A DNA stretch of 64,000 nt from Sipunculus nudus. Its lineage: Eukaryota; Annelida; Sipuncula; Golfingiida; Sipunculidae. A program made the position numbers and the translations under genes. The notes beneath the pieces are model-generated. The model searched no databases. It worked only from the letters and a program-made list of their open reading frames with translations, and was not told the origin of the DNA. Shown in pieces: positions 2,926 through 62,442 of this stretch (the first letter of the stretch is position 1; each line of letters begins with the position of its first letter). Location of the stretch: the NCBI GenBank assembly GCA_026874595.1, contig CM049311.1, forward strand, positions 65,141,953 to 65,205,952, given 5' to 3'.

Positions 2926-5900
2926 TTGGTCAATTGCGTATGTCTGTTTGTGGGGGTGTTTGTTTATTTGTCAGTATTATGCTGGCCACAGTTTTTCAAT
3001 AATCGCTTTGAATATTTTTCAGTTGATAGACAATTAAAAGTCCTGGCTGCCTGCTCTTTGTGGTCAACATAGGTTCAAGGTCAATTAAGGCAATAAAAAA
3101 AAGAGTCGAAAATTTATTTTCATCATAACGTTGTCAATATTTGCCTTATCTTCGCAAGTTTAGGCTCATTAGGCTAATTTTCTTCCTCTTTATCTTCTTC
3201 ATAAAAGGGACTGGTCATCTTGCTTCAACTTTATGTCGCTTTGTCAGTATGTCTGTCTGTGTGTCAGTTGTCCTCAATTTCGCCTTCTTGTTGGTTCTTG
3301 TATCTTGCATATAGCTTTCTACAGGCCACAATTTTACAGGAGTCATTTTGAAACTGATACATCTTTAGTCGTGCACTAATATCCCGAGATTAATTTTTCA
3401 TTTGAGGAAAATAAGCGCTTTCATTGAGGAAAATAGTTGCTAGCGGCGCTGCACTCGAAAAACTTCAACTTATTATTTTACTTGCCATAGCTTATTTTCT
3501 TTTTTAGGGGTCTTCTCCAAAAGGAATCCTCTTGAAACTGGTACATCTTATGTCATACGAAAATATCTCAAAGGAGATTTTTCATTTTCGGGATATGGCC
3601 GCCAGGGGGCGCTGCAATCGAACCACTCCTTTACATGATTTTTTGGCCATATCTCCAAAACTTTAAACCTCAATTATATAAACGATAGCTTATTTTCTTT
3701 CTCTTGGTCTTAAGCTTCATTACATGTTCAAGTCATCTTGTCTCAACTTTGTGTCCCTTTTTCAGTATGTCAGTCACTTCAAAATACTTTAAAATGTAAT
3801 TTCCTCTTACCTTTGTCACTTGTGGTTGTCACAACCTGGCTCATTTTTTCATCTTCGTCTTCTGCATAACTAAGTCAAGTCAACTGGTCTTCACTTTTAT
3901 ATCACTTTGTCAAAATGTTTTTTCTGTTTGTCTGTTGTCCTCAAATTTGTCTTCCTGATGTTTCTTGCCTCTGTTATATAGCATTTAACAGGCCACAATT
4001 CAGTAGAAATCATTTTGTAACTTAAACATATTGTATTTCGAAACAAGTGCTTGAAGCTGTTTGTGGCCCGTTTTCTTCCTGTTCGTCTTCTTTATGAAGT
4101 GATTAAATTACTAGCCTTCCACTCTGTTAGTTTGACAGTATGTCGGTCCGTTTGCCAGTTGGCCTAAATATCGCCTTCTTCCTGGTTCTTGTCTCTGACA
4201 TATAGATTCTACAGGCCACGGTTTTGCAGGAATCTCTTTGTAACTTACACATAACGTATATCGAAACGATTTCTTAAAGTTGTATATATAATTTTTTAAT
4301 AAGTCAATTTTCATTTTCAAATCATGTCAAAATTTTAATTCTCCCACAACGTTTTCAATATTGATCCTATTATTCACAAATTATGGATCATATGGATCTG
4401 TAAGTCACCTGAGCTATAGCGATCATCCTTTGTCCCTCGTCCGTCCGGCCGTCTGTCGGTTAACAGGGCACAAATCGTAACCGCTGGACCTGGAATCTTC
4501 TAACTTGACATCCCGGGAGGTCCATGAAAATTCTCCTTGAAAACCTAAAATTAGGTCTCTGTTACTCATATTCTTACAGCTATGGGGTTCAGATGTACCC
4601 CCCCCCCCCCCCCAGAATAATGGAAAATTTGATACAAAAGCTCAAGTATCTGAACAACTAATGCATAATTAACCATGATTTTTTGCATGGATATTGGTCA
4701 TGGAATGTTTCCTCACTTTCTGCAGACTGATGGCGCCACCTGTATTTTTTTTTTTTACAAATTTGTTTACTCTATTTTTGAGACCTTAAAAATGCAGTCA
4801 TCTGTTAACAGGGCACAAATTGTTTCCACTGAACCTAGAATCTTCTATCTTGACATGAAGGGAGGCCCATGAAAAGTCTCGTTGGAAACCTGGAATTAAG
4901 TCTCTGTTACCCATATTCTTTGAGGTATGGGGCTCTGAAGTACCCCGAAGAATAATTGAAAATTTGATACAAAGGCTCTTAGTATCTCAAGAAATAGTTC
5001 ATGGATTGCCATGATTCTTTGCATGCTTATTCATCATGGATTGTTTCCTCAATTCCTGCTGACTCGTGGCACCACATGTATATGTTCAATTTTTTTATGA
5101 TTTATTTTCTCTATTTTTGAGACCTTAAAAGATGCAGTCATCTATTAACAAGGCACAAAAAGTAACCATTGGACCTAGAATCTTCTATCTTGACATGCTG
5201 TGAGGTCAATAAAATATATCCGTGGAAACCTGAAATTAGGTCTCTGTTACCCGTATCCTCTGAGCTATAGACCCCTAAGAATAACTTAAAATTTGACACA
5301 AAAGCTCTAGTATCTCAACAAATTGTGCAATCATTGCCATGATTCTTTGTATGGATATTCATCATGGAGTGTTTCATCAGTTCTTGGAGACTGGTGGTGC
5401 GACCTGGAATTTTTCCAAATTTTATGCATTTTCTCTCTATTTTTGAGGCCTTCAAAGATGCGGTCGTCTGTAAACAGGACAGGGGCGTCAATGAAAAATA
5501 TCCTTGGAAACCTGAAATTAGGTCTCTGTTACCCATATTCTCTGAGCTAAGGGGCTAATAAGCACCACTAGCATAATTGAAAATTTGATACCACAGCAGA
5601 TCACAAATTATAACCATTGGACCTAGAATTTTCTAACTTAAAATCCAGGAAGTTCCATGAAAAGTCTCCTTAGAAACATGAAATTAGGTCTATGTTACCC
5701 ATATTCTATGAGCAATGGGGCTTATAAGCACGCCCCAGAATATTTGAAAATTTGAGACCAAAGTAGGGCACAAATCATAACCATTGGACCCAGAATCTTC
5801 TCACTTGGCATCCTGAGAGTTCCTCAAAAGTTCTCCCCTCAAAACCTGAACTTGGGTCACTGTGACCTATATTCTCAGAGTTTTGGGGTATGTTTGAGCA

Positions 5901-8577: not shown

Positions 8578-9147
8578 AGGAATGAACCGCGACAACGGAT
8601 ATCTTGTCCATTGCATAGACTAAACTATAAAGCTGACCTCACACTTGCACCAGATGACCCGTCGACTTTGACATCTTGTCTCCAAGGAAAAGCTTATAAA
8701 AAAAGGTGTCAGCCATGACACTCCAATGTCCCCCCTCACATTTTAAAAGGAGGTAGTGGGCGACCAAGTACATTTTTCCCCTCACTCTTTCGGTCAAACC
8801 TTTTTACAAGAAAATTGATTAATTCCTTTTCTGATCTTTACACAATTATATTTCAGGAATGCATTACATATTATGACAATTAAGTATTTCACATATCTGT
8901 ACTGCTGTACTGCATGAGTAATGAGTATTGTAAGGGTCGCTGTTGCACCATTTCGGGTCTTGGCGTATTAAGCCAGCTCCATATGCTGGCAAATATATCG
9001 ACCATAATCTTAATCCAATGTAGAGAATTATGCCTTAAGGATTTAAGATCTAGGTCTCACTGTATGGCCTATCTAAATTTATCGCGTTTCAACGTGACAC
9101 CAACGCAAGGGAAAGATAATTGTCGCGTGGGAAAGATATAGGCCTAC

Positions 9148-9470
9148 TAGTACATCAGCCAGGGGTATTATCGGTACCAATTTGGTTACAATTGCTATCA
9201 ATGTTTTTTTGAAAGGTGTGTGTATGTAGATAATAAAAATGCCTGATAGCAGTGTGAGAGTGGTAGCTTTCTGTAAAATATCAGCCTATTTTGAAAAGTA
9301 CTTTCATCGAAATTTGTAATATTTGTGGAACATACTCTTATACATATTATTTATTTATGACACCTTCTATGTTAATTTATATGTACTACACTTGGTATCA
9401 GGTGATAGCTGACACTTAGGGCTTTCATATGATGTATTTTTCAAGAAAATAGCAATGTTAATAATAGAAA
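9148..9470 (+). repeat. Left terminal inverted repeat of the transposon
   Basis: It pairs, inverted, with 15010-15334. Matching blocks are TAGTAC-TCAGC at the tip, GGTACC at 9173, TAATAAAAATGCCTG at about 9231, GTGGTAGCTTTC at about 9259 and GGCTTTCA-ATGATGTAT at about 9419. Similarity is imperfect with small indels, indicating an old insertion. The inner limit is approximate. Confidence 0.75.
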
Positions 9471-10112
9471 TATAAATATTTTCCTTAATCCTGCCACTAG
9501 GTAATTTGTAAATTTTAGTCTAATTTATATAAAGGAAACATGATTGTATTCTTCCAACAAGCCCAATCATGATATGTTTGGCTGATATATATTTTCAGGT
9601 GATTTATGAGTTCTGAAATCTGTTATTTGAAAATGCTTGTCAAGTATTTTTTAATATAATTATGTATTATGCACGTCTAGGGTGAAAAATGGAGAGGACG
9701 ACAAGTAAAAATTTAAAACAGCATATTTTTATTTATAAGTTTGTTGTATTAGTTTTATATCACGTATGATAGTCTTTTCTGTACTTGCAGACCTGACTTA
9801 AACCAGCAGGTAACATTGTTGATAATTGTGTTGATAGTTTTCTTAATTGTTCAGTTGAAAAGTTTTGTTAATTTTTTTGTTTTATAGCAATGTTCCTAAT
9901 CTACAACATAGATGTGTATAGTTTTCACACTGAATGTTTTATTGCATGATATACAGGGTAAGAATAAATATAATAAATATTAACACTTTAGCTAGTGATA
10001 TGTAATTATTGAAAATAATGCAATGACAGTAAAATACTTAAACAAATCATTATTTATTTTTACAGTAAGTCTTTTTATTAGAAAAATATAGTCAATTATA
10101 ACTTTCAGGAAA

Positions 10113-13100
10113 ATGGCTAGCAAACAAGAGCATAAAACTGGTGAAAGCTCAACATCACAACCAAATTCTCAAACCACAGGTCCAACATGTATTATCCATT
10201 GCACAGATGAACACCCAAATTCAAACCTAACCAGCTTGAGAGATCTTTCCTCCTGGGAAACACTTAAAAATGCTGCCAAAATCAGAAATCACAAGAAATT
10301 ATTGGAAATTGCCAGTCGTACTCCAGAAAATCAAATTCCTGTTGCACTACCACAGAAAATGCAGAAGCAGATTTACCTTGAAAAGAGACCTTGAATCTCT
10401 TAAATCCAAGGACACTGAAATAAATCCAGATGATGAATTTATAGCAAAGCGCCCATCGAGACAGATTCCAACATCTTCGTCTAGAATACATGAAAAGAAA
10501 TGCATATTCTGTGAAAAAGTGAAATACGTAAAAAAACAGAGGACAAGAGAACCTCCCAGGAAATGTGTAGATTTACGTGCAGATAGCACTCTCAGAAAAA
10601 TTGCAATAGCAAAGGGGGACAGCAAAATTCTATCTTCGACTACAAGAGAATTAGTTGCTGCTGAGGCCCCTTATCACACATCTTGCTACAAGTTTTATAC
10701 TAAGCAAACAGAAAAACATGAGAGTGATTCTGACGAGGAATTAGATTATCAGACAATAGAAAGAGAAGCATACCAAGAGTTGTATCAGTTCATCAGAAAT
10801 GATCTGAGCCTACAGCCCCGAATCATAAGAACGTCAGAACTGACTGCACAGTTAACAGATTATATTCTGTCAAAAGGTGTTGTCGAGATTACCAAATCAG
10901 AAGAGTGTTGGCCACATTTACCAGCATCCCTGAATTCTGCTGCCTATATAATTCCAGATTTGTTGAAACGGTTCCTTTTCTGCATTCTGACTGGTGACCT
11001 GCAGCCAACAGAAGTATCTGACCGGGTGCAGTGGTTGGTGGATTCCTTTAGCCAGGATCTGATATACGCGGTAACATGTGGAAGGCAAAAGCCTCCCAAA
11101 CATATCTTGTTAGCAGAAGCAGTAAAAAGCCGAACGGGTAACGTCGAGCTGATGCAGGCACTGAATCGACTAGGCCATGCAGTTTCCTATGACCAGATAG
11201 AAGAGAATGAAACTGGCTTATGTCTCCTGAAAATGGCTGATAGTCAAAATACAAACACCGTACTTCCTGAAAATATATATCCATATATCTTTACTACAAT
11301 GGCTTCGATCTTTTAGAAGAAACATTAAGTGGACGTGGAACCAGCCATCGTGTAAATGGAATTATAATTCAGCCAACAGTATATGGGCCACATTTGCGTC
11401 GTACTGAAGCACCCTCTCTGGTTAAGCGCAAACAAAGAAGTATCTTCATTGATGACCTGCATTTGCCATGTTATAACAGTGGTGACAGAGTTGGCCCTGG
11501 TGTCTTGAAGACAAAACAAAATGATTACACTTACGCACTATTTGCTAAAGTGGCAGAATGTATGTGGAAAAACAGTCAGCAATTTGAGGGCATCATTATC
11601 CGGATGGGTAAATTCCATACAATTTGCAACCTTTTGAGCATAATTGGAAAACGATACCAAGATGCAGGATTAAGGGATTTGTGCATTGAATCTGGTGTCG
11701 TAGCTGAGGGTTCAGTTGCTGCTGCAATTATGGAAGGACGCCATTACAATAGAGCAGTGAGAATACACAAATATGTGTATGAAGCTTTTATGCGACTTGC
11801 GTACAGAGGCTTTCAGACATGAGTATATGAGGTGCATCCAGGGAAAAACAAGGTTCTTCAAGACCTACAGGAAGATGTTCCAGGGCCATGTGATAATGTC
11901 AGTAAGGTACACTTTGAGGCAACTTTGCAGAGTCAAACATTTGAAGAGTTTGTGGATTTGTTCGGTCAATACCTTGAACATTTGCGTCACAGTAATGGCT
12001 CCCTTTCATCATACTGGATGTCGTATGTTGTCATAGTTGGTAATGTTTTGCTTGGGCTACTAAGAGCATCACGAGAAGGAGATTGGACCCTCTACATGTC
12101 CGCCGTTCGGGACCTCATACCTTGGTGCTTTGCGTATGACAAAGTAAACTACGCACGTTACTTGCCAGTTTACTATGCTTCAATGTCAAATCTGGAACGA
12201 GATCATCCTGATGTATATCAACATTTCATAAATGGAGGTTTTGCAGTGCAGATTGGAGACCAAAATCCATTTGGCCGCATACCTGTAGATCAGGCCTGCG
12301 AAGAAACTGTGAATAAGGATAGTAAAACTCCAGGCGGTGTGAAAAAATACAGTTTAAGAGCGGGAGCAGTAGCTCGGTTTTACATGATAGCAGAGCATCG
12401 CTCAGCCTTTCTCCTTCAGTTTCGTTGTATGACAGGGCTGCATAAGCCTGATCTGCAACATACTGAACTCCAAAAGACAAGAATAACAAAAGATGAGACA
12501 GCAGTAAACAGCATAGTAGCCACAATAGAAAACTGGGTGAATCCATTTGACGTCACCAGAACTTGATTAGTTTATCAACTGCTGTTTCTGCCACCAAAGA
12601 AGTACAAGAAGACCTTCTCAAAGCAAAGGAAATAGGTGAAGCTGCATACCAAGCATGTAAAGAGGAGCGATTGGACCAGGAACCAGCCAATGTCAAGTTT
12701 AATGAACCGATATATAAAAGGAAACTGCAGACTTTTACCAATGTCAGCAAAAGAAACATTAACATAAGGGCAAAAGGTAAAGAAGTTATGCTGACAGCAG
12801 ACAGAAAACTGTTTGGACAAATGCTCCTGATTGCCCAAACTCGGAAAAATCTGCAAATGAAAGATGTATTGTGCCATCCTTTGGGACCATTACCTTGGTC
12901 CCTTGCAACAACAGATGGTAGACTAAGAAAAACAAACAAACCAACTCTGGCAAAGGAGCTGCAGAAGAATATCCCATCTACAGAAAACATACCTCAACCA
13001 TCAGCTGTCATCATAGATGGGATGGCGCTAGAGCAGAGGATGAAAGGTGATCAGAAAACATTTGGACAACTAGCATCTGCTGTACTTTCTTCCTCCTTGA

Positions 13101-14308
13101 AGCAAAATACCCAGAGTGAAAGAGTTGATATTGTCTTTGATGTATACCGAGAACGGAGTATAAAAGATACTGAAAGGGAAAACAGAGGAAGTGAACATAG
13201 TCTTCCGTTTAAGAGCATTGCATCCGGTCAAATTATCAGGCAGTGGAGAAAATTTTTGGCAAGCTCTGGCAACAAAAGTGCTCTGATTGAATTCTTTGTA
13301 CATCAGTGGAAACAGCCAGCTAGCAGGGAACTGTTGAAGAATCGGAAGCTCTTTGTGACCTGCGGGACGAAGTGCTACATAATTACAAAGGACATGTATG
13401 AAGAAGTGACCGCACTTGAATCTTCGCAGGAGGAGGCTGATACTCGGTTGTTACTTCATGCTGTGCATGCAGCTGAAAATGGAAACAAGTCCATCATTAT
13501 AACTGCAGATGATACTGATGTTTTCCTGATGTTAGTTGCTTTCAACAGCAATATCCGAGCGACAGTCTTCCAGAAATGTGGTACCAGAACACGCACACGG
13601 TATATTGATATTAGCAAGGTGGCACGTGCTCGTGGTCCTGAAGTTTGTAAAGGACTCCTTGGTATCCATGCATTCACTGGCTGTGACAGCGTCAGTACTT
13701 TTGCTGGCAGGGGAAAACTTACAGCTTTGAAGCTTCTGCAGAAAGATAGTACGGCCCAAGAAGTATTTAGCCAGCTTGGAGAGGAGTGGCTAGTAAAACC
13801 AGCAATGTACAAAGAACTGGAAAGGTTTACATGTAAGTTGTATTTCTCACGCACAGAGCTTGAAGATATTGATGACTCGCGGTACCATTTATTTTGCATC
13901 AAGAAAGGAGAGTGTGATTCACATCAACTTCCACCTTGTCAGGATTCTCTGTACAAACATATTCAGAGAGCTAACTATCAAACTGCCATCTGGCAATGTT
14001 GTCTTGTCAACTGCCCGGACATCCCAAGTCCTATTGGCCATGGGTGGAAATTAGAGACAAATGAAGGATCCACTAAGATTGCCATTGATTGGATGGATGG
14101 CCCCCCTGCCCCAGATGCTGGGTTAGAATTGTTAGCCTGTAAATGTGTAAGGCAGTGCAAGCCACCTGACTGCACTTGTATTTCAAATGGACTAAAGTGC
14201 TCACACATGTGCAAACTGCAAGCATGTGCCAACCAGCCAGCCAATGAAGATGACGAATGTGAAATAAACAAATCTAGTGATGACGAGGTCGATGACTATG
14301 ACTATTAA
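10113..14308 (+). pseudogene. Transposon protein: Cys/His cluster, FEN1/XPG-like nuclease, CXC domain; three frameshifts and one stop
   Basis: One intronless reading region of about 1,390 codons, conserved in style with large uncharacterised proteins of cnidarians and molluscs. It runs in frame from ATG 10113. It shifts frame near 10340-10352, shifts again near 11270-11295, meets TGA at 11820-11822, and shifts once more near 12560-12566. The rest (12563-14308, 581 residues) is open. Early part: CIFC and YHTSCY (Cys-x2-Cys, His-x3-Cys) suggest a zinc cluster near 10500-10690. Positions below count from 12563. The nuclease signature is IIDG (Asp152), VFDVY (Asp193), EEADTR (291-294), ADDTDVF (316-320), then GCDSVSTFAGRGK (373-385), which resembles the helix-hairpin region of FEN1/XPG enzymes. 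The CXC cluster at 526-555 has nine closely spaced Cys, as in tesmin/TSO1. I see no DDE or tyrosine-recombinase motif by eye. Sequencing error could explain some lesions, but four in one gene favours decay. The nuclease assignment is inference from motif order. Confidence 0.8.
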
Positions 14309-15009
14309 ACACAGCTTAATGTGCTTGTTATACAGAGCAGAAGTGTAAAGATATAGCTGATAAGGATTAGGCGTGAACATATGGGTTAGTGCTTAATCAT
14401 GTTTGACAAGCACCTTGAAATACATTGTCAGTACAATTGGTCTATTCACATTTTGTTCAAAAGAAAATGTTTTTTTTTTCAGCAGCTTGTTTTATTGAAC
14501 GTGTGATTTTACTTTAATGAATATCAAAATTGTTTACTGTATATGATAATCAGAACTCCTTATATTTTGTGAAAACTTCAGACATATACATACATGTACG
14601 TCCACAATGTCAGCATAACATGATATAGCCCTTATAATTTGAAACTGTAAATGCTATAGCGCACTTCCTTCACTGTCAGAAAAGAACTTGATATAATGTA
14701 AGTCTTCATAATAAAAGATATGCATCACTGTATTTTTGTACACTGTGAGTTGCTGCTTGCATAATCTAAGTAAGGACCGTGAAACTCTTAGAAATATAAA
14801 ATATTTAATATGGATTTTTTCTATGGGTGAGGGTGCCCATGAGAATATTACTTTATTTGCATACACCTAATAAACATGACCGATTCGGCATTTGAAGGTT
14901 TATGGTCCTAGCCATTATTTAAAAGCAGATTTGACCGGATATATTAGGTGAATACAGTGGCATGATGCTCATAATTAGTAAATTTTCTGTTTTCCTCGAA
15001 ATGTATTTT
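14309..15009. other. Transposon 3' noncoding region
   Basis: AT-rich DNA between the stop codon and the right inverted repeat. It holds a ~40-bp block at 14890 (CATTTGAAGGTTTATGGTCC) that is repeated in direct orientation at 15073 (CATTTGAAAGCCTATGATCT) inside the right arm. Such subterminal repeats could be transposase-binding sites; that is inference. Confidence 0.5.
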
Positions 15010-15334
15010 TTCTTATTGGTAGAGGAAACATAATAATGAATAACTTTGGCAGCAATTATCATAAATTATACATCATTTGAAAGCCTATGATCTAAGCTAT
15101 AATTTAAAGTGTTAAGAGCCTTATAACTGCAATTTTGTCATTTTCTTTGAAAACCAAAAATTTGTCGACCTTTGTACATAAAACATGCTCTTTTTCATTG
15201 AAAGCTACCACTTTCATACTGCTACCAGGCATTTTTATTACCTGCAGATGTATATCTTTCAAGCTGACATGGTGCCAATTTGTCACCAGAAATGGTACCG
15301 GTGAGTCAAATTCTGGGGTCTAGCTGAAGTACTA
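15010..15334 (-). repeat. Right terminal inverted repeat of the transposon
   Basis: Reverse complement of the left arm with the same order of conserved blocks. It ends GCTGAAGTACTA at 15334, followed by TAC (15335-15337). The 12-mer TGTCGCGTGGGA follows at once at 15338-15349 and also occurs, in the same orientation, at 9121-9132 outside the left end. Confidence 0.75.
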
Positions 15335-15680
15335 TACTGTCGCGTGGGATCGAGATAAAAAAAATAATTTTCTGTGTGTCCTCTACCAGCTGTTAGCTCA
15401 GGCTGTAAGTTATAATGCTAATAAGTGGCGTTTGGTATAAGGTTTCTTTGGTAAACACAGATCTGTGATTACCCTCGGCATACTTCGACATCCTGCGAAA
15501 ATAAGCTATACAAATGGTTTTATTATTAATATCCTGATTTGACGACCAACTCTCCAGCCATGGCTGCACATGTGGGTAAAATATTCTTATTGAGTTAATT
15601 TAAAGTTTTTTTTTGTGACACTTTCCCTACCTATGCAGTATCCCGATACTTTTCGCAATATATCTGAGACCTTTAAAATG

Positions 15681-15886
15681 GCTTGCTTTGTAATACCTGG
15701 ATAAACTCCGAAATCTTGCTGTAATGTTTACAGTGTTATACAGGATAGGAATGTTATAAAAACCTTATTTTGTTTGCTGTAGAGCTTGCTTTGTAATACC
15801 TGGATAAACTCCGAAATCTTGCTGTAATGTTTACAGTGTTATACAGGATAGGAATGTTATAAAAACCTTATTTTGTTTGCTGTAGA
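15681..15886. repeat. Perfect 103-bp tandem duplication
   Basis: The unit beginning GCTTGCTTTGTAATACCTGG occurs at 15681-15783 and again at 15784-15886 without a visible mismatch. The duplication is either very recent or an assembly artefact. Confidence 0.85.
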
Positions 15887-16137
15887 GGTTTATGAATACT
15901 GCATATATGTTTGATATAGATTCTTTTCAGAGCTATTGATTGCCATTTTAATTTTATATATTCTTTTCTGATCCATCAATTTATGTTTGTATCGATATTT
16001 TTGCATTTATCGATATATCGTGGCTCCCTGCTTGGTTTAATAAAATGTTTGTATACATGAACAAGATTAAGTGTCTTCTTTTCAATCAGTAAGGCCATGA
16101 TTATGTCAAATGACGTAATAAAAACGTAACATTAAAT

Positions 16138-40765: not shown

Positions 40766-42220
40766 ATCCGCCAAAATAAAGTTTTGGGGATACTATGTTT
40801 TTGACCGGGTTCTGCGTCGCCATGTTCTTTTCCAGAGAACCCCTCTGAGACTACTGGACGGATTTTTCCGAAACTTACACCAGTTATTGGGTCTCATGTG
40901 AACTGGTGCCTTACCAATTTGCGTTGACCTTTGACCTTTCCTCTCAGCATCCATTTGTGGGTCTATTTCCACACATAAACCCACATATCTCTGGAACAGT
41001 TTGACCGATCAGGAACAGAATTTTGTACAAATGTAGCCCTTGGATAGCTTTATAACATATACAAAAAATGGTGGCGCCACCTGCAACCACCTTTGCACAC
41101 TGTCCATCTGTTTGTCTGCCTTTGGTTAAAATCACTCATATCTCCGAAGTGGATTGACTAATTCACCTGAAATTTGGCATGCGTATACATCCTGGATAGC
41201 TTTCTTGATTTTATGATAGTTGGCGCCACCTACATTAATTCACGTTCATGCTGCAGACATCCATGCTTATATCTCTGGACTGGTTTGACGTATCTTCCTG
41301 AAAATTTGCATGTGTATAGATCTCACATAGCTCTTTACCATACACAAAACTGGTGGCGCCACCTGCAACCATTTTTACACAGCGTCCATCTGTTTGTCTG
41401 CGTTGGGATAAAATCTCTCATATCTCGGCAGTGTTTCCACATATTTGCCTAAAATTTCGCAGGTTTATACAGCCTGAACAGCTTTCTTGATTTTATGACA
41501 GGTGGCGCCACCTAAATTCTAGTTTACGCTGTAGACATCTAAGCTCATATCTCGGGAACCGTTTGACTGATTGGGCCAAAATTTTTCAATGTTTATAGAT
41601 CTCACATAGCTCTTTATCATACGCAAAACTGGTGGTGCCACCTGCAACCATTTTTGGAAAGCGTCCATCTGTTTGTTTGCTGTGGGATAAAATCACTCAT
41701 AACTTGGCAGTGGTTTAACATATCTTCCTAAAATTTTGCAGGTTTATACATCAGGGACAGCTTTCTTGATTTTATGACAGGTGGCACCACCTACATTATA
41801 GTTTACGCAGCAGACATCCAAGCTCATATCTGGGGAACTGTTTGACCGATTGGGCCAAAACTTTGCATGTGTATAGATCTCACATAGCTCTTTATCATAC
41901 ACAAAACTGGAGGGGCCTTCTGCAAACATTTTTGCACAGCGTCTGTTTGTTTGTCTGCCGTGGGCTAAAATCACTCATATCTCAGTAGTGGTTTGACTTA
42001 TCTGCCTAAAATTTTGCATGTTTATACATCTTGGCTAGTTTCTTGATTTTTTTTGGCGGATGGTGCCACCTACATACACATTTTGGCTGCAGACATCCAT
42101 GCTAATATGCAACACACCTCACTCTATTTCCCCTTGCCACTCAATCCATACCTCACTTCACCCGTTCCATTCTGATTTTGGCGGATACACGCAATCACTT
42201 GTTGACTACCCGTATTCTAG
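40766..42220 (+). mobile_element. F1 tandem-core element, copy 1
   Basis: It starts TATCCGCCAAAA with a nearby inverted arm (GTTTTGGGGATAC). Diverged ~140/280-bp core units each carry GGTGGCGCCACC-like palindromes and 'CATATCTC'. Near the end is TTTTGGCGGATAC, the inverted copy of the start. Then come a weakened hairpin (GCAATCACTTGTTGACTAC) and CCGTATTCTAG ending at 42220, followed by TT. Confidence 0.75.
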
Positions 42221-44527: not shown

Positions 44528-44759
44528 GTAGGTGTCCGGAGAACTCCTCCCTAACCGCTGGGCGGAATTTTCCGAAACCCGGGATTATGTTCGGGTCACA
44601 TGTGAACTGCTGCGCCCCGATTTTGTTTTGACCTCTGACCTTTCCTTTGCGATCTGCGTCCGTTTGTGCGTCTGTTTCCACACATAAACCCACATATCTC
44701 GGGAACCGTTTGACCGATCAGGAAAATTTTTTGGCACAAATGTAGCCCTCGGAGAGCTT

Positions 44760-46040
44760 TATAACATACACCAAAAATGGTGGCGCCACCTGCAACCATG
44801 TTAGCACAGTGTCCATCTGTTTGTCTGCCTTGGGTTAAAATCACTCATATCTCTGCAGTGACTTGACTAATTCACCTGAAATTGGGCATGCGTAAACATC
44901 CTGGATAGCTTTTCTGATTTTATGACAGGTGGCGCCACCTACATTCACGTTTACGCTGCAGACATCCAAGCTCATATCTCGGGAACTGTTTGACCGATCA
45001 GGAAAATTCTTTTGCACAAATGTAGCCCTTGGAGAGCTTTATAACATACACCAAAAATGGTGGCGCCACCTGCAACCATGTTTGCACAGTGTCCATCTGT
45101 TCGTCTGCCTTGGGTTAAAATCACTCATATCTCTGCAGTGACTTGACTAATTCACCTGAAATTGGGCATGCGTATACATCCTGGATAGCTTTTCTGATTT
45201 TATGACAGGTGGCGCCACCTACATTCATGTTTACGCTGCAGACATCAAAAGTCATATCTCGGGAACCGTTTGACTGATCAGGAAAATTCTTTTGCACAAA
45301 TGTAGCCCTTGGAGAGCTTTATAACATACACCAAAAATGGTGGCGCCACCTGCAACCATGTTTGCACAGTGTCCATCTGTTTGTCTGCCTTGGGTTAAAA
45401 TCACTCATATCTCTGCAGTGACTTGACTAATTCACCTGAAATTTAGCATGCGTATACATCCTGGATAGCTTTTCTGATTTTATGACAGGTGGCGCCACCT
45501 ACATTCACGTTTACGCTGCAGACATCCAAGCTCATATCTCAGGAACCGTTTGACCGATCAGGAAAATTCTTTTGCACAAATGTAGCCCTTGGAGAGCTTT
45601 ATAACATACACCAAAAATGGTGGCGCTACCTGCAACCATGTTTGCACAGTGTCCATCTGTTTGTCTGCCTTGGGTTAAAATCACTCATATCTCTGCAGTG
45701 ACTTGACTAATTCACCTGAAATTTAGCATGCGTATACATCCTGGATAGCTTTTCTGATTTTATGACAGGTGGCGCCACCTACATTCACGTTTACGCTGCA
45801 GACATCCAAGCTCATATCTCAGGAACCGTTTGACCGATCAGGAAAATTTTTTTGCACAAATGTAGCCCTTGGAGAGCTTTATAACATACACCAAAAATGG
45901 TGGCACCACCTGCAACCATGTTTGCACAGTGTCCATCTGTTCGTCTGCCTTGGGTTAAAATCACTCATATTTCTGCAGTGGTTTGACTAATTCACCTAAA
46001 ATTCGGCATGCTTATACATCCTGGATAGCTTTTCTGATTT
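44760..46040 (+). repeat. 280-bp minisatellite core of F1 copy 2
   Basis: Anchors at 44780, 45060, 45340, 45620 and 45900 are spaced exactly 280 bp. Only scattered substitutions distinguish units. Each unit is itself two diverged half-units, each with the 12-bp palindrome. Confidence 0.9.
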
Positions 46041-49000
46041 TATGACAGGTGGCGCCACCTACAATCAAGTTTACGCTGCAGACATCCAAGCTCATATCTA
46101 GGGAACCGTTTGACCGATTGGGCCAAAATTTTGCATGTGTATAAATCTCACATAGCTCTTTATCATACGCAAAACTGGTGGCGCCACCTGCAGCCATGTT
46201 TGCACAGCTCCCATCTGTTTGTCTGCCATGGGATAAAATATCCATGCTAATATGCAACACTTCACCCGTTCCACTCTGATTTAGGCGGATACAAGTAGTC
46301 GCTTGTCGACTACCCGTATTCTAGTTCTAACATGGGGGCCACCATGGGACAATATTTGTTGAAAGTACTTAAGATAATAATCTTATAAAATCATTTCACA
46401 ATTTGTGCTTCTGTATTTCAGGTTTAATGTACACAACAAAAGGAATAATCTCATTGAAATCATTACCAGTAATTAAGTTATTAGGCTAAACTTCAGAAGA
46501 TCTGTTAGGATATCTGCATTTTGTTCAGTACATTGAGACTAATCGGGAGACTGGTTAAGTTTTATAGTGTTTTTTTTTTACATCACAGAAACAAGTGTTT
46601 TGCAATTATGTTCTCCCAACCCAAAGGCCATCAATACATGTAAATAACAAAAAACTACCCAATCCATCAGCCAGGCAAAAAAGACAGCTGAGAAATTTTA
46701 TTCATCAATTCTGCCAAATGGTGTGTCCTGATGAATTGACTGGCCCTTAAAAACTTGTGATAAAAAAAAAAAGAAAAAAAATTAAGAGCATGCCCTCTTT
46801 GACTTATGTACTGTGTTACTTTGCAATTTGTTCATCTGAAGCCATTATTCATGTGGCTGTTAAAAAGCTAGGTATTTGTATTGAACTTGTAAAACTTCTT
46901 TTATAGGTGTCTTTATATACTGATTATAAAGTTACATACCCACATTTAGTTGTGGTCAGTGATCTGTTTGACTTAATTCCCATGACCCATGCCCATGGTG
47001 TTTTACATGAATGGAACAAAGCTTCTTGGGTAATGGGTGTAAATGTTATATTTTGTTATCACTAAACAGTTATGCATCCCTCACCTTCTTTGTGTGTTTG
47101 TTTGTCAGATTGATTCAATTTGGTTGTTCACACAATCTCTTCAAAAGCACACATTGATTTTCTGTGAATTAATGTTGTAAGGTGGGGTATTTGCCAAGGA
47201 ACAGATACTCATACAATGAGGTAGATCAGAAAAATAATAAGAAATGTTGTGATGTTGGTATTTTTTTTTTCAAGAGACCTGAAATTTAAAGCATGACATA
47301 GTTGCAGAATTATGACAGAAATATGATACACACGTAATATACCTACACACATTAAAATATACAACCCTTTATATATTTGATCAGCCTTTAATTAAAAGTT
47401 GTATTTCAAACCAAAAAATGCCAGATCTCTCCATGCAACTGTAGTATTTTCTGTACTCCATTTTTAAAATGTGTAAACTTTCAGTCAGCCACAAGGTACA
47501 AGAAATCCTTGGACTTGGCTAGGTTACATTTTATATAAAACAGTTCTCTAACCTTGGCAATAAACTGACAAAATGGTATGTTTTATTACATCTAATAAGA
47601 TGTAGTTGAGGATGGTAAAATTTTTCTTTTGCAAGATTGTAAGGGAAAATCACATCTAAAAGATGAAATTTATGGAACATAGTTGCAGTTACAGCAAAAC
47701 TTTGACAGGAGATTTATAAATTTTACTGGCGTCCTCATTTTATGTTAGCTTTAAACCTGTGTAAATTATCTTTTTGCTGTAATTGTTTGTAGAATAACTG
47801 GGAATTGGATGACAAACAGATACATTGAACCTGTGGTGTGTCCATTAGCAGTAACTTTTGACTTCGCCAGCCATGGGGGAAGTATCTATGTTCCAATTAT
47901 CAGGAAGCTTTTTCTTAATGTCTTTAGAATACGCTCCAGTCTCAGGTTTACCTGCCTTAGGACAGTGTAGGAGGTGTCCTCCGCACTATCATTTGCTCAG
48001 TGATATATGGTCCTGTCCACGGTGTCGTCCCAAAGGCTTCATTGCATGTGGTCCCTAGTGGCGCTGTGCTAGGTAAATCACAACATATGTCCCACCACTT
48101 GTCAAGTAAATTTGAGTTAATATCAACTTGCTTGGGCTGTCATCTCAGCTTAGACCTGCAGCGTTTTTCAGATTCACAACCAGCTACATGAATCATAAAA
48201 CCTAAATGTTGTCACATTTTTCTACTCAGAGTTTGAAATTGTCAGTACCTGTGCTATTATTATGTGCTGTATTTCCTTGTAATAAGCCCACTTGGGCTGC
48301 AGAAAATTCACTCTGGGCATGCAAGGAAACCAGAGAGCACAGATTTAAAGGTCTGTTTTCCTTAAAAATATTGATAAATTAATAGACATAGTAATTGTTT
48401 TTTATTAAAATAAATGTTTATAAATTAAAAATGTATAATTAAAAAAATCTGAATATTGTAACGTAACAAATTTAGGTCAAGCAAATGTATTCCAAATCTC
48501 ATTTTATTATCATATAACATAATTGCCTATGAAAAAATATTAATATAGAATTTACATAAAATAAGCCCAATTCCTGGAGGAAAAACATTTTTTCTATCTA
48601 TTTTTCCACTAAAAACATGAGGTTGTGTGATTTGTTCAAAAACTATTAGCACATCTATGAGCACTGTCAACTTGGCAGTGGTGTCACACACTGGGAAATC
48701 CCCTGTGACTAAAGATTCAAGATCTCAGTAAAAGCACAGTATTTCTGCCTCTGTCAGTCCCAAATTTTCAGCAGAGAATAAAAACAACATGCATTACTAG
48801 ATCTGAGTTGTTGATAAAACTCAGTCCATGATGTCACATGTGTACCAGCCAATCAAATCAGGACAAAGTCTGGGTTCTGGATGAAATCCTCCCATCACAC
48901 AACAAACGCACATGGAATAGGTTTACTTAACCTTCAGGACTTCAAAATTTTCCTTTGTGAAATCTTAAAACTCAGGACTGTCATTGTCTGTCAACAGTTT

Positions 49001-57788: not shown

Positions 57789-58416
57789 TTTATACTAACT
57801 CTGAGTAATAAATTTACTATTGACTCTGAGTATTCAAGCCTGATTGGTCTGAGGGAAGGGAATTTAAATTTAGGAGATGATCAGGACACATGTGAAAGGA
57901 ATTGGGTTTTATGGGGATGTAGAACCTCAGAATAATTTGTTTTCTGCATGACACCCCAAAAGCTGGTTATTGTCCCCCGCTCCGTGGATGCAGGGGAAAA
58001 TTATTTTGGGTTTTTCTGTCTGTCTGTCCTTCTGTCTGTCTGTCTGTCCTTCTGTCAGGTTTCATTTCCATGTAATAACTTTCCTAATTTTTATCCGATT
58101 TCATTCAAATTTGGGTCAGTGATTGCTCTCATGCATACCTTGGTTGGGATAGGTTTTGGAGTGTCTGGCTTGTGTCGGTCTGTCTGTCACTTTGTCGGTC
58201 TGTCTGTCAGGTTTTTAGCTCAGCTGACTGAAAGTCATCTGAGCTATAGCGACCACTCTTTGTCCGTCTGTCCGTCTGTCCGTCCGTTAACCAGGCACAA
58301 ATTGTAACCGCTGGACCTAGAACCTTGTAACTTGGGATTCTGAGAGGTCCATAAAAAATCTCCTTGGAAACCAGAAATTAGGTCTCTGTTACCCATATCC
58401 TTCGAGCTATGTCTCC

Positions 58417-60440
58417 CCAAAGTACCCCCCAGAAAAGTCAAAAATTTCATACAAAAACTTCAATATCTCATTAACTACTTGACTGATGGTCATGATTTTT
58501 GGCATACATATTGATCATGAGATGTTACATCACTTCCTGCAGACTGGTGGCGCCACCTGTATTTTTCGATTTTTTACGAATTTTTTTCTCTATTTTTGAG
58601 ACCTTTAAAAATGTGAACATCTGTTAACAAGGCACAAATCATAAAGACTGGACTTAGAATCTTAATTCTTGACACACTGAGAGGTCCATGAAAAATCTCC
58701 TTGGAAACCAGAAATTAGGTCTCTGTTACCCATATCCTTTGAGCTATGGGGCCCCAAAGTACCCCCCAGAATAGTAAAAAATTTCATACAAAAACTTCAA
58801 TATCTCAATAACTACATCAATGATGGTCTTCATTTTTGGCATATATTTTGATCATGAGATGTTCGATCAGTTCCTGCAGACTGGTGGCGCCACCTGTACT
58901 GTTTGATTTTTTACGATTTTTTCCTCTATTTTTGAGACCTTTGAGGATGCTGTCATCTGTTAGCGTGGCACAAATCGTAACGACTGGACCTAGAATCTTC
59001 ATTTTCGACACACTGAGAGACCTATGAAAAGTCTCCATGGAAACCAGAAATTAGGTCTCTGTTACCCATATCCTTTGAGCTATGGGGCCCAAAATTACCC
59101 CCCAGAATAGTCAAAAATTTCATACAAAAACTTCAATATCTCATTAACTACATCACTGATGGTCATGATTTTCGACATACATATTGATCATGAGATGTTT
59201 CATCAGTTTGTGCAGACTGGTGGCGCCACCTGTATTTTTCAATGTTCACGAATTGTTTTCTCGATTTTTGAGACCTTTAAGGATGTAGTTATCTGTCAAC
59301 AGGGTACAAATCGTAACGACTGGACCTAGTATCTTCGTTCTTGACACACAGGGAGACCCATGATAAGTCTCCGTGGAAACCTGAAATTTGGTCTCTGTTA
59401 CCCATATCCTTCGAGCTATGTGGCCCCAAAGTACCCCCCAGAAAAGTCAAAAATTTCATACAAAAACTTCAATATCTCATTAACTACTTGACTGATGGTC
59501 ATGATTTTTGGCATACATATTGATCATGAGATGTTACATCACTTCCTGCAGACTGGTGGCGCCACCTGTATTTTTCGATTTTTTACGAATTTTTTTCTCT
59601 ATTTTTGAGACCTTTAAAAATGTGAACATCTGTTAACAAGGCACAAATCATAAAGACTGGACTTAGAATCTTAATTCTTGACACACTGAGAGGTCCATGA
59701 AAAATCTCCTTGGAAACCAGAAATTAGGTCTCTGTTACCCATATCCTTTGAGCTATGGGGCCCAAAATTACCCCCCAGAATAGTAAAAAATTTCATACAA
59801 AAACTTCAATATCTCAATAACTACATCAATGATGGTCTTCATTTTTGGCATACATAATGATCATGAGATGTTCGATCAGTTCCTGCAGACTGGTGGCGCC
59901 ACCTGTACTGTTTGATTTTTTATGATTTTTTCCTCTATTTTTGAGACCTTTGAGGATGCTGTCATCTGTTAGCGTGGCACAAATCGTAACGACTGGACCT
60001 AAAATCTTCATTTTCAACACACTGAGAGACCTATGAAAAGTCTCCATGGAAACCAGAAATTAGGTCTCTGTTACCCATATCCTTTGAGCTATGGGGCCCA
60101 AAATTACCCCCCAGAATAGTCAAAAATTTCATACAAAAACTTCAATATCTCATTAACTACATCACTGATGGTCATGATTTTCGACATACATATTGATCAT
60201 GCGATGTTTCATCAGTTTGTGCAAACTGGTGGCGCCACCTGTATTTTTCAATGTTCACGAATTGTTTTCTCCATTTTTGAGACCTTTAAGGATGTAGTTA
60301 TCTGTCAACAGGGTACAAATCATAACGACTGGACCTGGAATCTTCGTTCTTGACACACAGGGAGACCCATGATAAGTCTCCATGGAAACCTGAAATTTGG
60401 TCTCTGTTACCCATATCCTTTGAGCTATGGCACTCCAAAG
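58417..60440 (+). repeat. 1,009-bp higher-order duplication in the F2 core
   Basis: The anchor AGAAAAGTCAAAAATTTCAT lies at 58431 and 59440, and other anchors keep the same 1,009-bp offset (58817 and 59826). Only a few substitutions separate the two copies, so three-unit blocks were copied recently. The right border is approximate. Confidence 0.8.
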
Positions 60441-61272
60441 TACAGCTCAGAATAATGGAAAATTTGATACAAAAGCTAAAGTATCTGAACAACTAATGCA
60501 GAGATAACCATAATTGTTTGCATGGATATTGATCATGGAGTGTTTCATCAGTTTCTGCAGACTGGTGGCACCACCTGTATTTGTTCGTTTTTTTTTACGA
60601 AATTTTTCTGTATTTTTGAGACCTTTAAAGATATGAACATCCGTTAACAGGGCACAAATCATAAAAACTGGACCAAGAATCTTCATTCTTGACACACAGG
60701 GAGACCCATGAAAAGTCTCCATGGAAACTTGAAATTAGGTCTCTGTTACCCATATTCTTTAAGCTGTATGGGTCCAAAATACCCCCCCCCCCCCCAGAAT
60801 AATGGAAAATTTGATACAAAAACTGCAGTATTTCAATAACTACAACACTGATGGTCATGATTTTCGGCATACATATTGATCATGAGCTGTTCCATCAGTT
60901 TCTGCAGACTGGGTGTGCCACCTCTATTTTTTTTCAAATTTTTACGAATTTTTTTCTTTTTTTTGAGACCTTTAAAGATGTGGTTATCTGTCAACAGGGT
61001 ACAAATCGCAACAACTGGACCTAGAATCTTCATTCTTGTCATGCAAGGAGGCCCATGAAAGGTGCCTGTGGAAACTTGAAATTAGGTCTCTGTTACCCAT
61101 ATCCTTCAAGCTATAGGACTCCGAAGTATCCCTCAGAATAATGGACAATTTGATACAAAAACTGAAGTATCTGAACAACTTATGCAGAGATCACCATGAT
61201 TTTTTGCATGGATATTGACCATTAAGTGTTTTTATTAGTTTCTGCAGACTGGTGGAGCCACCTGTATTTTTG

Positions 61273-62442
61273 TATCCGCCAAAACGAAGTTTTGCAGATA
61301 ATATGTTTTTGACCGAGTTCCTCCGCTGCGGCGGCGTTCGTTTCCAGAGAGCTCCTCGGAGACTAATGGACCGATTTTTCCCAAACTTACACCTATTATC
61401 GGGTCACATGTGAACTGGTGCCTAACCAATTTGCATTGACCTCTGACCTTTCCTCTCTATCCAGTGTCCATTTGTGGGTCTGTTTCCACTCATAAACCCT
61501 CATATCTCAGGAACCGTTTGATCGATCAGGAAATAAAATTGATACAAATGTAGCCCTTGGATTGCTTTATAACATACACAAAAAATGGTGGCGCCACCTG
61601 TAACCATGTTTGCACAGTGTCCATCTGTTCATCTGCCTTGGGTTAAAATCACTCATATCTCTGCAGTGAATTGACTAATTCACCTGAAATTCGTCATGTG
61701 TATACATCCAGGATAGCTTTCTTGATTTTATGACAGGTGGCGCCACCTACGTTCACTTTCACGCTGATGACATCCAAGCTTATATCCCTGGAACCGTTTG
61801 ACTGATCAGGAAATAAAATTTATACAAATGTAGCCCTTTGATAGCTCTGTAACATACACAAAAAATGGTGGCGCCACCTGTAACAATGTTTGCACAGCGT
61901 CTGTCTGTTAGTCTGCCGTGGCCTAAAATTACTCATTTCTCTATAGTGGTTCGACATAACTGCCTAAAATTTTGCAGGTTTATACATCATGGACAGCTTT
62001 CTTGATTTTATGACAGGTGGCGCCACCTACAGTCTAGTTAACGCTGGACACATCCAAGCTCATATCTCAGGAACCATTTGACCGATTGGGCCAAAATTGT
62101 GCATGTGTTTAGATCTCACATAGGTCTTTATCATACACAAAACTGGAGGGGTTACCTGCAAAGATTTGTGCACAGTGTTTGTCTGTTTGTCTGCCATAGG
62201 CAAAAATCGCTCATATACATTTAGTGGTTTGACTTTTCTGCCTAAAATTTTGCAGGTGTATACAACTTGGACAGCTTTCTAGATCAGTGGTAGGTGGCAC
62301 AACCTACATACACATTTAGGCTGCAGACATCCATGCTAATATGCAACATACCTCACTCTATTTCCCCTTGCCACTCAATCCATGCCTCACTATCCGATTT
62401 TGGCAGATACATGTAGTCACTTGTCGGTTACCCGTATTCTAG
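61273..62442 (+). mobile_element. F1 element, copy 3, innermost of the nest
   Basis: It starts TATCCGCCAAAACG with hairpin partner GTTTTGCAGATAA. Core units carry GGTGGCGCCACC at about 61588, 61737, 61870 and 62017. The end is TTTTGGCAGATAC, a partly decayed hairpin, CCGTATTCTAG at 62442, then TTTT. It interrupts an F2 core unit between CCACCTGTATTTT and TTTTAAAAGTTTACAAATTT. Confidence 0.8.

Follow-up and report, generated by a model that had tools for sequence, protein, structure and literature searches.

A degenerate, probably AcademX-type DNA transposon with a FEN1/XPG-like nuclease half, and its relatives, in the genome of Sipunculus nudus

The stretch of Sipunculus nudus DNA analysed here (64,000 nucleotides, referred to as the window) contains at positions 9148-15334 a 6,187-bp transposon copy with terminal inverted repeats and a TAC target site duplication. 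The ends of the element are TAGTACATCAGC and, in inverted orientation, TAGTACTTCAGC, with TAC on each side, and the junctions read TAC/TAGTACATCAGC...GCTGAAGTACTA/TAC (9145-9147/9148 and 15334/15335-15337). The left terminal inverted repeat (9148-9278, + strand) consists of the TAGTACATCAGC tip and a subterminal stretch at 9172-9278, and the right one (15191-15334, - strand) of 15191-15300 and the tip at 15323-15334; the two subterminal stretches, which lie inside both tips, pair with each other. The left (9145-9147) and right (15335-15337) copies of the target site duplication, neither of which is assigned a strand, can be read directly in the sequence. This copy is degenerate, and the probability that it is an AcademX-type (Academ superfamily) cut-and-paste DNA transposon is put at about 0.85.

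The element holds the remains of a single gene on the + strand, which according to the list of open reading frames and their translations occupies 10113-14308, from a probable ATG at 10113 to a stop codon at 14306-14308. The single long coding region of the original prediction stands as one gene but not as one frame; it is broken into five open pieces and only that at 12551-14308 (585 amino acids) is long. The order of parts in the encoded protein would be an N-terminal Cys/His region, a probable DDE transposase and a FEN1/XPG-like nuclease, with a cluster of cysteines at the end. The Cys/His region (10501-10701, + strand, seen in the sequence as CIFCE ... YHTSCYKFYT) is possibly a zinc finger and has no Pfam match. 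None of the five + strand pieces reaches a curated Pfam cut-off, the eight - strand frames of this copy give nothing at E ≤ 0.01, and a helicase is absent from the matches of both sets; a PDB sequence search gives nothing at E ≤ 1, and Rfam has no match in the window. In two related loci the open frames measure 319 and 1,229 (L008) and 559 and 957 (L010), which suggests an intact protein of about 1,500 residues, and in L010 and L016 an apparent GT...AG intron, recognised by eye, interrupts the gene at the same place. What the window holds of this repeated DNA transposon of animals is a broken copy; it cannot supply an intact transposase, and any movement would be possible only with the protein of another copy.

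A search of the 1.43-Gb genome with the 585-residue frame gives at least 78 matching stretches (fragments of one copy may be counted repeatedly), several of them with long open frames, so that a chance origin of the coding region can be dismissed. The closest copy among the matches listed, on C17, is 94% identical in this frame, and a second close relative, on C3, matches at the DNA level. In genome copies elsewhere homology ends at both boundaries of the element. Specifically, the match starts at element base 1 (9148) in nine of ten excised distant copies and at base 3 in the tenth, while outside the element identity drops in these left ends (n=10). DNA searches with the element ends (571 initial candidates for the left end and 499 for the right) or with joined flanks were scored for the best 40 candidates only. 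Among the 40 scored rows for the left end, all 39 other than the window itself start at query bases 11-23, where element base 1 is base 19, and hence at most 8 bases from the element start. The right-end search has 39 rows besides the window, of which 38 stop at query bases 284-291, at most 6 bases from 15334 (the last base of the element being query base 285), and in the C17 copy the match stops at query base 277, 8 bases short.

Perfect 3-bp duplications flank 15 of the 19 insertions in which both ends were read (seven coding elements and twelve copies not known to carry the gene); by arithmetic, a 3-bp match is expected by chance in about 2% of cases at around 35% G+C. The perfect coding cases are the window element (TAC), L015 (TTT), L016 (TAA), L024 (ATA), L020 (TAT) and L019 (ATT, read by eye). 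Among copies not known to carry the gene, the duplication is perfect in L036 and L038, matches at two of three bases in L037, and is perfect in seven of nine further end pairs, which were matched by nearness (mostly about 4 kb apart, up to 6.4 kb, the intervening DNA being unread). The count of 19 does not include L007 and L039, whose right ends were unrecognised, or 12 more coding loci without recognised ends. Related families in the same genome have the ends TAGTCCAGCAGA, TAGTCCATTGG and TAGTCCGG.

Empty sites were sought by joining the two flanks with one copy of the duplication and searching the genome with the product. The L016 join is found at one place (C11:72084326-72084465, with 99% identity along its full 140 bases), the L024 join at five places (97-98% over 139 or all 140 bases) and the L020 join at 34 places (97-99% over all 140 bases). 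These uninterrupted sites with one duplication copy confirm the ends and the 3-bp duplication for the families of L016, L024 and L020. The window join, which falls in a diverged repeat family, is spanned by 71-81% matches with small gaps, a result that agrees but is weaker. For the L015, L036 and L038 joins, the 40 best candidates that were scored yielded no match. As a separate observation, the flanks of the window element (9078-9147 and 15338-15407) belong to an older dispersed repeat family with TGTCGCGTGGGA, which has 71-93% matches elsewhere. The original prediction of a DNA transposon, with inverted repeats and a TAC duplication, is borne out by these dispersed copies with common ends, their duplications and the empty sites of related families; copies elsewhere keep the ends, and the number of matching stretches is not that of a single-copy gene.

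Not all copies with these ends share the interior of the element. Four of the ten distant left ends were extended, and three of them have both ends, 3.65-4.02 kb apart; the right end of the fourth was not found. The interior of the extended copies (L036, L037 and L038 included) is unmatched to the element DNA except for short stretches near the left end, and their listed frames of at least 90 amino acids appear by eye to be unrelated to the element protein. The 3.65-4.02-kb copies are therefore read as a non-autonomous family with the element's ends but another interior.

The better modelled half of the protein is the C-terminal one. For residues 129-494 of the 585-residue frame (12935-14032, + strand) an EXO1/FEN1/XPG-like (PIN-like) nuclease fold is predicted, in keeping with the FEN1/XPG PIN fold of the original prediction. 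The model, built with AlphaFold from 22 aligned rows, has a mean predicted local distance difference test score (pLDDT) of 75.8, and 32 of the 35 ten-residue blocks of 131-480 exceed 75. Foldseek returns seven matches at E ≤ 0.001, all of them XRN1/XRN2/Rat1 nucleases, followed at lower ranks by T5 FEN, FEN1, Rad2, XPG and GEN1, with unrelated rows (e.g. SUMO E1) mixed in below; in the rows shown, whole-model TM-scores by query length are low, at 0.34 or below. Re-examined with VIA-align, the Foldseek list has human EXO1 at the top (Z 14.5, root-mean-square deviation (rmsd) 3.5, 260 residues, model 129-494), and then FEN1, XPG and Rad2. Sequence identity to the FEN1, EXO1, XPG and XRN rows shown is about 7-15%. 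In a library of viral structures most of the named rows are FEN1/XRN-type nucleases, led by a sturgeon herpesvirus protein at 11% identity; these matches were read as a sign of a shared fold and not of kinship. Scans of viral and prokaryote contigs with two short patterns each gave 52 and 130 pattern stretches, respectively, and no relative was confirmed among them.

Seven acidic residues are conserved in the alignment of relatives (13016-13687, + strand), with counts given over the rows that cover each column among 22 aligned rows: D156 (13016; 19 of 20), D197 (13139; 18 of 19), E295 (13433; 20 of 20), D297 (13439; 19 of 20, the exception being E), D321 (13511), D323 (13517) and D379 (13685), the last three in 20 of 20 each. 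Their order and spacing (E-x-D, D-x-D) match the seven active-site acids of FEN1, and the predicted model combines the PIN-like fold and the seven acids of the FEN1/XPG superfamily. The motifs named in the original prediction were all located, namely IIDG (within 13004-13030), VFDVY (13124-13147), EEADTR (13424-13447), DDTDVF (13502-13525) and GCDSVSTFAGRGK (13667-13717), as was the CXC-like cysteine cluster, which follows the nuclease domain and contains eight cysteines in the sequence (14138-14227, + strand). The Tesmin/TSO1 CXC family (Pfam TCR) lies below its cut-off in the window copy (E 0.11, 13.3 bits against 23.5) and matches two of the 22 rows scanned, at best with E 0.057.

Upstream of the nuclease, the relatives share three acidic motifs in the order DNxD, FDQ and DxAxE (DxAxExxN), on the basis of which this half is likely to be a DDE transposase. 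DNxD was found by pattern in 18 of 19 loci (not in L021), and in an alignment of 29 rows the FDQ aspartate is present in 16 of 17 covering rows and the DxAxE glutamate in 17 of 18. The corresponding remnant in the window copy, delimited by motif comparison with relatives (11271-12563, + strand), retains GxFH (11601-11630) and DQACEETVN (within 12282-12314), while a pattern search found neither DNxD nor FDQ there, which explains why these two motifs were invisible when the window was read on its own. The window copy is also interrupted by a stop at 11820-11822, a point at which the C17 copy stays open; in C17, DNxD is present and FDQ was not found by pattern. The Pfam family DUF6589 weakly matches 10 of the 29 rows (best E 3.4e-6, 26.4 bits), and genome-wide a match over the cut-off (27.9 bits, C3:52481001-52481558) directly adjoins a same-strand nuclease match (C3:52479441-52480895). 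In the structural comparison by VIA-align the Hermes transposase occupies ranks 2-3 (Z 4.1 and 4.0, rmsd 8.6 and 9.0; model 138-591, Hermes 154-590), which is only a hint; a probable reading is an RNase H-like DDE transposase in which a helical insertion separates the second D from the E. All seven between-family pairs have proportions of synonymous differences (pS) of 0.77-0.90, near saturation, as against 0.20-0.34 for non-synonymous ones (pN), in both halves, which indicates that both have been kept as protein between families by purifying selection.

DUF6589 also occurs elsewhere in this genome, with 26 matches, some of them fragments of one locus. At three loci examined with their neighbours (L058, L059 and L060, the neighbours being L061-L066), the strand opposite DUF6589 carries helicase-like motifs (GKS, DEVH, QxxGRxGR); from the sequence, these motifs may be read as RecQ-like. 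At two of the three loci the helicase-like frame was scanned with Pfam, and one of these frames matches Helicase_C (E 8e-13) while the other has no match. The DUF6589 matches at the helicase-linked loci are stronger than those of the XPG-bearing proteins, GDQ[LM]T and DNI[DN] are present at two of the three and GDQLT at the third, and none of the nuclease matches listed in the genome search lies at any of them. A profile comparison weakly aligns the XPG-linked transposase half co-linearly with the helicase-linked set over the FDQ, FH and D..E motifs; the nuclease half gives a still weaker result (E 0.31). These loci are probably AcademH-type elements.

We take the nuclease of AcademX to be of the XPG type. 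Within the Academ superfamily, AcademH is reported to have duplications of 9 or 10 bp and AcademX of 3 or 4 bp, a contrast apparently connected with the helicase and the nuclease that these elements encode (PMC10045372). The AcademX-type label is given because the 3-bp duplication and the nuclease fit this split: 15 of 19 duplications are perfect at 3 bp, a nuclease domain is predicted by fold and acids, and the helicase of AcademH is not found in the window copy. The element is well supported as a new family of AcademX type, a kind that already has a name, and its architecture appears to be known. The original prediction had called a nuclease of this fold unusual as the main catalytic unit of a cut-and-paste element; the element is less novel than that, since AcademX, with a nuclease and duplications of 3 or 4 bp, is already in print (PMC10045372). 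Titles and abstract beginnings in a limited literature collection gave nothing on XPG-bearing transposons, and in that collection no mention of DUF6589 was found.

Several observations weigh against the AcademX-type reading. The assignment was made by published description (duplication length, nuclease). The 3-bp duplication is imperfect in four of the 19 insertions (L037, L044/45, L046/47 and L017, the last a coding element whose duplication fits only on the assumption of a change in the final base of the element end), and 13 of 20 coding loci have no readable end pair. In the transposase half, a simple pattern finds FDQ at only 13 of 19 loci and DxAxE at 15 of 19 (aligned rows recover some of the motifs missed), and all DUF6589 matches of the tabulated XPG-bearing proteins fall under the cut-off of 27, several having none. 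The structural model of this half is poor (mean pLDDT 56), Foldseek gives nothing for it at E ≤ 0.001, with unrelated top rows, and Hermes ranks below an unrelated Csm6 row (Z 4.4), at a level where Z can be due to chance. Within families the ratio of non-synonymous to synonymous change (dN/dS) is 0.29-0.75 (five pairs), so recent copies are under little constraint. Finally, the helicase-linked set is matched weakly in the profile comparison (E 0.0096, probability 4.3), and the helicase-linked loci show no convincing inverted repeats and no readable duplication.

One rival, which goes back to the reading first proposed for this DNA, has the FEN1/XPG-like nuclease itself do the cutting and leaves the N-terminal half with DNA binding alone. 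The nuclease half is indeed the better modelled, with the clearer active site, and the other half has only weak structural matches, but the three acidic motifs stand in the order of a DDE transposase and are kept in nearly all covering rows, and the upstream half weakly matches DUF6589, which also occurs beside helicase-like genes at the three loci without listed nuclease matches. The nuclease as main or only catalyst is not supported; as sole catalyst it was dropped, and this rival is improbable. A little less probable again is an Academ look-alike that bears a nuclease but belongs to another superfamily (e.g. Kolobok, hAT or the KDZ group). Hermes, a hAT element, does appear in the structural list, but hAT duplications are 8 bp and those of Kolobok are TTAA, as against 3 bp here. 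Likewise, Kolobok lineages encode various nucleases and helicases (PMC9587614), but the published lineage that combines a nuclease and duplications of 3 or 4 bp is AcademX (PMC10045372). That a host gene lies by chance between repeats could be argued from the long frames under purifying selection between families; the many dispersed copies with common ends and duplications, and the empty sites of related families, speak decisively against it and leave it a negligible chance, and a single-copy host gene is rejected by the repeat status and these same sites.

For the AcademX-type element, a possible mechanism is that the DDE domain binds the TAGT... ends, excises the element and inserts it into the target through cuts staggered by 3 nt. 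The XPG-like nuclease would act at the ends, trimming or nicking a strand that is structured or carries a flap in the course of excision or gap repair, and the cysteine cluster may bind DNA. We infer a role of the nuclease in transposition, be it essential or accessory. It is tempting, if on the whole unlikely, to see a two-nuclease transposase in which the XPG-like domain makes the second-strand cut or removes the end flap, with a helicase-to-XPG swap setting the duplication length (3 against 9-10 bp). Since AcademX-type families and helicase-linked relatives share one genome, the published suggestion on accessory enzyme and duplication length becomes directly testable. The value of the material lies in a well-bounded AcademX-type family set within a single genome, with empty sites, acidic motifs in both halves and helicase-linked relatives, and in tentatively tying DUF6589, a Pfam family of unknown function, to a transposase.

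Other features of the window lie apart from the element. Exons of a cytochrome P450 gene on the + strand are found at 439-1026 (Pfam p450, E 8e-21) and at about 1481 (with an AGTETT motif); its heme-binding exon was not found in a simple pattern scan of the window. A unit of 336-345 bp starting GTTAACAGGGCACAAAT forms two far-apart arrays (4459-5478 and 58286-61271), and a unit of 279-280 bp with GGTGGCGCCACCTG forms three (41044-42108, 44693-46239 and 61499-62284). About 350 bp past the element there is a perfect 103-bp tandem duplication (15681-15887).

Among known systems, Hermes (hAT) resembles the element in the possible RNase H core with a helical insertion, a weak likeness, and Hermes is not known to carry a nuclease domain. 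FEN1, EXO1, XPG and XRN share the predicted fold and the seven acidic positions, but in the element this domain sits in a transposon protein with a cysteine cluster. KolobokE, KolobokD and KolobokP likewise combine a DDD/E transposase with an accessory nuclease (PMC9587614), whereas their nucleases have the unrelated folds PD-D/ExK, DEDDh and His-Me. AcademH is approached through the transposase half, distantly related to the DUF6589 found beside helicase-like genes at three loci, and differs in that its helicase is oppositely oriented, while the element joins an XPG-like nuclease and a transposase in one protein, and in its published duplications of 9-10 bp as against 3 bp. The closest likeness is with AcademX, in the 3-bp duplications and in the nuclease and probable DDE transposase of the window element family; in length, the 6,187 bp of the window element compare with a mean of 5,565 bp over 100 curated Academ consensus elements reported from bivalves (PMC10294476).

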